From positions 1,152,501-1,216,500 of the forward strand of contig NZ_CP116902.1 in NCBI RefSeq assembly GCF_028471905.1: a stretch of 64,000 nucleotides of DNA, given 5' to 3'. Both the position numbers and the translations under genes were made by a program. Of this stretch, positions 45,684 to 46,253 are shown piece after piece. Source of the DNA: Aneurinibacillus uraniidurans (GTDB lineage Bacteria > Bacillota > Bacilli > Aneurinibacillales > Aneurinibacillaceae). Every line of letters begins with the position of its first letter. Positions within the stretch are counted from its first letter, which is position 1. The notes under the pieces were generated by a model. The model made no database searches. It was not told the DNA's origin and saw nothing but the letters and a program-made list of their open reading frames with translations.

Positions 45684-45712
45684 TTGCAACATATTCGTAT
45701 CCATGTTATTTT
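45684..45712 (+). promoter_or_regulatory. speD promoter
   Basis: TTGCAA (45684-45689), 17-base spacer, TATTTT (45707-45712), placing the transcript start near 45719. Confidence 0.6.
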
Positions 45713-45719
45713 AATTCTC

Positions 45720-45854
45720 GTTAGAGAAATCAATTAGGAACCAGGATTCACTTAAAGGGTGGGATTTTCTCGTGCTCACTCGCCCCCGTGGTGAATGACG
45801 TAGGTCCTAGCGATGTTTAACCACATTACTCATCCTAGGAAGGGGGACCGGAAG
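45720..45854 (+). promoter_or_regulatory. Structured 5' leader of speD with alternative helices
   Basis: Three stacked helices can form: TAGGAACC (45735-45742) with GGTCCTA (45803-45809), one A bulged; ATTCAC (45746-45751) with GTGAAT (45791-45796); and GGGTGGG (45757-45763) with CTCGCCC (45779-45785), with wobbles. A competing helix pairs TCCTAG-c-GATG (45805-45815) with CATCCTAGGA (45131 offset: 45831-45840), 10 pairs with one bulge, and reaches the edge of the ribosome site. The outer helix and the competing helix share 45805-45809, so they exclude one another. That is the layout of a translational switch. Confidence 0.5.
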
Positions 45855-46253
45855 ATGGAATACTCAACTTTCGGCAGACATGTAGCAATTGATGTGTGGG
45901 GAGTCGATTTCGAACTTCTCAACAGTGCAGAGTTTTTGAAGAACCATATGGTGGAAGCTGCAGAAGCGTGTGGTGCGACAGTATTGTCCGTGCAGGCGCA
46001 GCAGTTTGAACCGCAGGGTGCAACTGTACTTGTTATGCTTTCGGAAAGTCATATCTCCATTCACACGTACCCGGAGAAAGGGTTCGCGGCTCTAGATTGC
46101 TACACATGCGGGGAAACAGTGGATCCGCAGATTGCCATCGACTACATGGTTTCAATTCTGAAGCCAGAGAAGTACTATGCCAAGAAGCTGATTCGTGGCG
46201 TAGGGGAGATGGAAGTTGTAACACCAGAAGTGAAAAAACACGTGAATGCGTAA
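45855..46253 (+). CDS. speD: S-adenosylmethionine decarboxylase proenzyme
   Basis: 132 residues, class 1B. Self-cleavage should occur before Ser65 in LSESHISIHTYPE, making the pyruvoyl group; His70 and Cys85 (CYTCGE) are the other conserved catalytic residues. It supplies decarboxylated SAM for spermidine synthesis, two genes on from speA in function. The ATG at 45855 follows AAGGGGGA. The long leader is unusual. Confidence 0.96.
   Translation: MEYSTFGRHVAIDVWGVDFELLNSAEFLKNHMVEAAEACGATVLSVQAQQFEPQGATVLVMLSESHISIHTYPEKGFAALDCYTCGETVDPQIAIDYMVSILKPEKYYAKKLIRGVGEMEVVTPEVKKHVNA

Follow-up and report, generated by a model that had tools for sequence, protein, structure and literature searches.

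To our knowledge, few of the riboswitches claimed for polyamines have held up. A known leader RNA of the same pathway is the spermidine riboswitch, variants of which precede genes such as speE, speB, and speD (PMC10853860); however, that RNA is a variant of the SAM-I aptamer, whereas the present leader has no Rfam SAM-I match and is built on a different two-stem core. In SAM-II, SAM-V, and preQ1-II, the Shine-Dalgarno sequence (SD) is one strand of a pseudoknot, as it would be here if the CCCCC:GGGGG pseudoknot considered below forms, but the present RNA has no covariance-model match. The potE and odc1 motifs (PMC8632094) are also candidate structured RNAs near polyamine genes; they differ in the genes concerned, and potE is weakly supported while odc1 is a uORF element.

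In Bacillus subtilis, a 79-nt segment listed as "Unknown or speD leader region" was enriched 14-fold with Hfq (PMC3574147, Table 2), in a data set whose peaks in known signal-responsive leaders fall almost exclusively in aptamer domains. This segment, transcribed between gapB and speD, is very probably the element described here; the published entry is an uncharacterized peak, given no structure, conservation, or mechanism. It was the only mention of the leader found in our search of openly accessible journal papers: the leader does not appear in RNA screens of 26 and 50 genomes or in a riboswitch review, and searchable papers yielded no description of speD control in Bacillus and its relatives.

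The speD leader of Aneurinibacillus uraniidurans

We analyzed a 64,000-nucleotide stretch (the window) of the 3.85-Mb A. uraniidurans genome, in which speD is preceded by a leader with the features collected in Table 1. Transcription probably starts near 45720, as judged from promoter-like elements read from the sequence, although in a scan for consensus promoters TTGCAA-17-TATTTT scored under the threshold. Paenibacillus homologues have a promoter laid out alike upstream of the leader. No terminator-like sites were found between 45600 and 46400, which fits control at the level of translation; transcription attenuation was rejected for want of an intrinsic terminator ahead of speD in this interval.

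Table 1. Features of the speD leader, in window coordinates
Feature	Positions	Strand	Basis or remark
Probable promoter, TTGCAA (45684-45689), 17 nt, TATTTT (45707-45712)	45684-45712	+	Inferred by sequence reading
P1 5' strand, UAGGAACC	45735-45742	+	Partner 45803-45809; arm-permutation test
P2 5' strand, AUUCACU	45746-45752	+	Covarying stem
Core 5' side, UAAAGG	45753-45758	+	With G45759 forms GGG able to take C-rich strand
P3 5' strand, GUGGG	45759-45763	+	Arm-permutation test
P3 3' strand, CUCAC	45775-45779	+	Equivalent in other lineages: CUAAC, CCCGAC
C-rich strand, CCCCC	45783-45787	+	SD-complementary; alternative partner 45757-45759 (GGG paired in leader fold)
Conserved GU, 3' closure of core	45788-45789	+	G in 118/130, U in 119/130 leaders
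P2 3' strand, GGUGAAU	45790-45796	+	Covariation and arm permutation
P1 3' strand, GGUCCUA, common to P1 and P5	45803-45809	+	Read directly; constrained folds
P5 5' strand, UCCUAGCGAUG (UCCUAG-C-GAUG)	45805-45815	+	Hairpin kept, distal stem varying, 8 lineages
P5 3' strand, CAUCCUAGGA	45831-45840	+	P5 arm-permutation test
SD, AAGGGGG (GGGGG 45842-45846)	45840-45846	+	G-run counts with versus without RNA
speD, S-adenosylmethionine decarboxylase	45855-46253	+	PF02675, 7.3e-37

Two helices, P1 (7 pairs, one bulged A) and P5 (10 pairs, one bulged C), lay claim to the same segment, 45805 to 45809. The initial annotation had proposed that this segment can pair either way, and both helices proved real and nearly isoenergetic: constrained folds gave −31.6 kcal/mol for the P1 state and −33.0 kcal/mol for the P5 state, a gap of 1.4 kcal/mol. 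P5 is the 10-pair hairpin that it had placed next to the ribosome site, ending directly before AGGGGG. One correction applies: P5 stops at 45840 and leaves the G run (45842 to 45846) unpaired, and the SD could instead be covered by CCCCC (45783 to 45787), which that annotation did not mention. The minimum free energy of the leader was not above chance relative to shuffled sequence (z = +0.79), and most single leaders were likewise not significant. Because fold energy was at chance level, a single-sequence fold is no proof and was not used as evidence, and the case rests on comparison.

Rfam 15 (4,227 families, including SAM-I, SAM-II, SAM-V, and speF) returned no hits in a gathering-threshold scan of the window, none over the leader at E ≤ 10, and nothing over the leader at 13 homologous loci, bearing out the earlier impression that it belongs to no known class.

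Distribution of the leader and its link to speD

Of 61 related genomes, 36 had a match to the leader DNA. The 80 named loci collected came from Aneurinibacillus, Paenibacillus, Cohnella, Ammoniphilus, Caldalkalibacillus, and others. Covariance model R1, comprising P1 and P2, matched 220 of 398 Bacilli genomes; its weakest matches, many of them cut down to P2-P3, sat upstream of B. subtilis-type speD and revealed the true core. A second model, R2, matched 235 of the 398, and since 28 genomes were matched by R1 only, the union is ∼263 genomes. When R2 was run on 398 genomes sampled across the phylum, it made 10 matches: 8 fell in Bacilli genomes already found RNA positive and 2 in other classes, both preceding speD. 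In those two classes, the RNA occurred in 15 of 111 and 4 of 46 genomes, always upstream of speD. The exact core pattern had no match in viral contigs.

At all 288 loci (271 + 17), speD lies directly downstream. The RNA spans at least three classes of Gram-positive bacteria with no gene other than speD seen behind it, and transporters and speE were never found with it among these loci. Conversely, a PF02675 search placed speD in 292 of the 398 Bacilli genomes, or ∼275 with a full-length gene once ∼17 weak matches are set aside, and ∼262 of these carry the RNA by our tally. Rfam therefore lacks a structured leader that accompanies full-length speD in ∼95% of the Bacilli genomes sampled. In the sole RNA-positive genome lacking speD, the RNA lies 4 bases from a contig end.

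Thirteen Bacilli genomes have speD and no RNA. In the 10 upstream regions read, leaderless speD mostly lies close behind another reading frame, and several of these frames resemble an arginine-decarboxylase-type gene. At L274, L275, and L279 to L282, the gene right before leaderless speD has an arginine-decarboxylase-like end (YPPGIPILMAGE), as if speD had been transferred into an operon with loss of its leader.

A covarying core and lineage-specific stems

The leaders share a core in which P2 covaries around UUAAAGGG-[P3 hairpin]-CUUNNCCCCCGUGG, followed by an SD whose GGGGG is complementary to CCCCC. The consensus reads P2 strand - UUAAAGGGUURG - (apex) - CYRACUUNNCCCCCGUG - P2 strand - linker - (A)AGGGGG - short spacer - start. 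By pattern search, AAGGGU occurs together with CCCCC in 130 of 220 leaders, where the immediately preceding bases are nearly invariant. P2 extends outward as P1, a lineage-specific stem. The P5 hairpin, with a varying distal stem and stopping just short of the G run, is found in Aneurinibacillus, Paenibacillus, and relatives; Bacillus-type and other homologues are without it. On sequence comparison, the P1/P5 competition is lineage specific, of the Aneurinibacillus/Paenibacillus-like type.

Arm-permutation tests, in which relatedness was handled by dereplication alone, favored native partners throughout. For the P1 and P2 arms of 35 dissimilar homologues, the mean energy was −17.0 kcal/mol with a leader's own partner versus −12.1 kcal/mol (SD, 0.55) with permuted partners (0 of 5,000 permutations); the outer part, P1, alone gave −10.2 versus −8.2 kcal/mol in the same 35 homologues (0 of 5,000). 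The P3 arms, which across lineages read GUUAG/CUAAC, GUGGG/CUCAC, and GUUGGGGC/GCCCGAC, paired at −5.9 versus −4.2 kcal/mol (0 of 5,000), and the P5 arms paired at −14.5 versus −11.4 kcal/mol (0 of 5,000), with just 8 dissimilar lineages in the P5 test. Comparison therefore supports both helices of the competition first proposed for this locus. Considered jointly, P2 and P3 had 74 cells changed on both sides versus 29.7 in shuffles, and the covariation score of P2 was 0.302 versus 0.161 in shuffles.

The Shine-Dalgarno sequence and its C-rich complement

A run of at least five G's marks the SD of 200 of the 203 unique Bacilli leaders and of all 17 leaders from outside Bacilli. None of 10 speD genes without the RNA had a GGGGG SD, and the background, taken from the genes of the window only, was 10 of 63. 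CCCCC/GGGGG complementarity is kept across lineages. Where the C-rich strand is UCUCCUC (L002, L028, L031, and L237), the SD tract becomes AGGAGRGGGG or GAGGAGA, and CUCC-type strands have duplex energies of −12.5 with their own SD versus −9.1 to −10.0 with the SDs of other types. Over all unique C-strand/SD pairs, the own-partner value was −11.72 versus −11.40 for permuted pairs (4 of 5,000), a small effect in which kinship is ignored; within the window, the SDs of 18 of 59 other genes pair equally well with CCCCC.

For Bacillus-type leaders, RNAalifold returned P3 and a helix of the C-rich strand with the SD and dropped P2, a predicted structure that supports SD pairing, although RNAalifold cannot show pseudoknots. 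In nested folds, lineages differed: the probability of pairing between SD and C-rich strand was 1.0 in L002, L132, L157, and L181 and low in L195 (0.17) and L163 (0.31).

A candidate translational switch

The leader has a conserved, covarying 5' structure and a consistent association with a metabolic gene, as expected of a translational riboswitch. Its architecture would suit the masking and unmasking of the ribosome site, which gives it the look of a metabolite switch of a new type. We lean toward control of speD translation in cis, by a switch whose C-rich strand has two possible partners and whose signal is probably a spermidine-pathway metabolite. Translational switching, as the initial annotation proposed, thus stands as the best reading, but the P1/P5 competition on which it was based is restricted by lineage, and what is shared is the P2-P3 core with its SD-complementary strand. 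Besides P1/P5, three strands could compete: GGG, CCCCC, and the GGGGG of the SD. P2 would close the core, leaving CCCCC to choose between partners. In the open state, CCCCC would pair with the GGG just 5' of P3, so that the SD is free and translation is on; in the closed state, it would pair with the SD in a putative pseudoknot that retains P2 and lower P3, turning translation off. The choice would fall to a signal, most probably a small spermidine-pathway metabolite, bound in the invariant internal loop UUAAAGG/CUUNNCCCCCGUG; by analogy with pathway feedback, it is expected to favor the closed state. Binding is likely placed in this loop because no other part of the RNA is shared by so many lineages. 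In the Aneurinibacillus-type lineage, P1 would stabilize the core, and P5, by taking the 3' strand of P1, would oppose it; with P5 formed, P1 is lost while the SD stays exposed, which probably makes P5 a feature of the open state.

The leader might also be read by a protein or by the ribosome. Binding of a translation-blocking regulatory protein, or of SpeD itself, with no metabolite sensing, is in our estimate unlikely: the long invariant hairpin with its conserved apical GGACCUC...GGAC in most Bacilli would suit such a site, and the exclusive association with speD would suit autoregulation, but there is no candidate protein, and Aneurinibacillus, Paenibacillus-type, and non-Bacilli homologues have a different apex although their internal loop is still recognizable. 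Slightly less probable still is an ON switch, in which plentiful substrate SAM favors GGG:CCC, frees the SD, and turns speD on. The four leaders that by default pair SD with C-rich strand speak for it, as a ligand might be needed for opening; however, the SD of L195 and L163 is mostly free by default, and feedback repression is the commoner mode among biosynthetic leaders.

A conserved element for mRNA stability or constitutive translation, with no signal-dependent switching, appears improbable. A stable 5' structure can protect mRNA, but alternative pairings with a common strand (P1/P5 and GGG/SD) are kept across lineages, and the SD is fixed as GGGGG only where the RNA is present. Least credible of all is a leader peptide, in which stalling at KGLGPxxTNFPPW-stop, the reading of one frame of the core in many Bacilli, would control speD. 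Pro-Pro-Trp is a known stalling motif, and leaders with a 3-nt loop keep this frame open, yet there is no start codon, and a stop lies 2 to 3 codons upstream in typical leaders (L159 and L163). Loops of 2 and 4 nt (L030 and L152) disrupt the frame, as do insertions (L258 and L270), and it is also interrupted in the window leader; stem changes follow pairing rather than codons. With the start absent and frames broken, this candidate is largely refuted, and the Pro-Pro-Trp likeness (e.g., in L159 and L163) is a coincidence.

Returning to the metabolite-responsive switch, spermidine is tentatively the leading ligand candidate, followed by some other ligand or none; decarboxylated SAM and SAM are each a little more doubtful. 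We know of no RNA sensor for decarboxylated SAM. Exclusive use with speD is narrower than expected of a general spermidine sensor and counts against the proposed switch; it is as compatible with decarboxylated SAM or SAM as with spermidine. In trypanosomes, expression of the activator of S-adenosylmethionine decarboxylase is reportedly controlled by the product of that enzyme (PMC6221367), an analogy showing only that such a signal is possible. Judged from sequence comparison, the leader most likely represents a new structural class among leader switches that act in cis, well supported as an RNA family and a candidate as a metabolite sensor. A fuller proposition we regard as an even call: the leader would define a new class of riboswitch, old within the phylum and shared by B. 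subtilis, with spermidine or decarboxylated SAM as its ligand, and would be the chief regulator of spermidine synthesis in these bacteria. The leader is a ready target, being a single RNA of ∼80 to 130 nt with a handful of candidate ligands, and speD and speE knockouts exist in B. subtilis (PMC10853860).

Variation among lineages

The P3 apex, GGACCUC-NNN-GGAC, is near invariant in most Bacilli and replaced in other lineages. In L258 and L270 (genomes G034 and G053), a GC-rich, hairpin-like insertion of ∼50 nt lies exactly in the P3 apical loop. Paenibacillus-type leaders and those of second speD copies have P3 shortened or rebuilt, and UUCCCUC or UCUCCUC replaces CCCCC. One such copy, in G000 (C1:1849887-1850270; L002), encodes a protein 87% identical and has its own divergent-type leader, with a short P3 and a UCUCCUC strand complementary to the ribosome site AGGAGGGGGG. 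Another (L237; G103:C1:3437974-3438884) has the ribosome site GAGGAGA rather than GGGGG, and both its C-rich strand (UCUCCUC) and its P5-like hairpin are altered to match. Within the genus, the leader of genome G001 (L008) is the same as that of A. thermoaerophilus (L034).

In L283 to L296, L027, and L188 to L191, another conserved hairpin follows P1 in place of P5, with a GC stem and the loop UUGARAGG (e.g., GCAUGCUUGAAAGGGCAUG). The Bacillus-type leaders L150 to L179, the last of which we take from its SpeD sequence to be from the B. subtilis group, have near-invariant initial transcribed bases, UCGUGAACUUCUU. These are able to pair with AAGAAUUCAU, which lies ahead of the ribosome site, and so enclose the entire leader.
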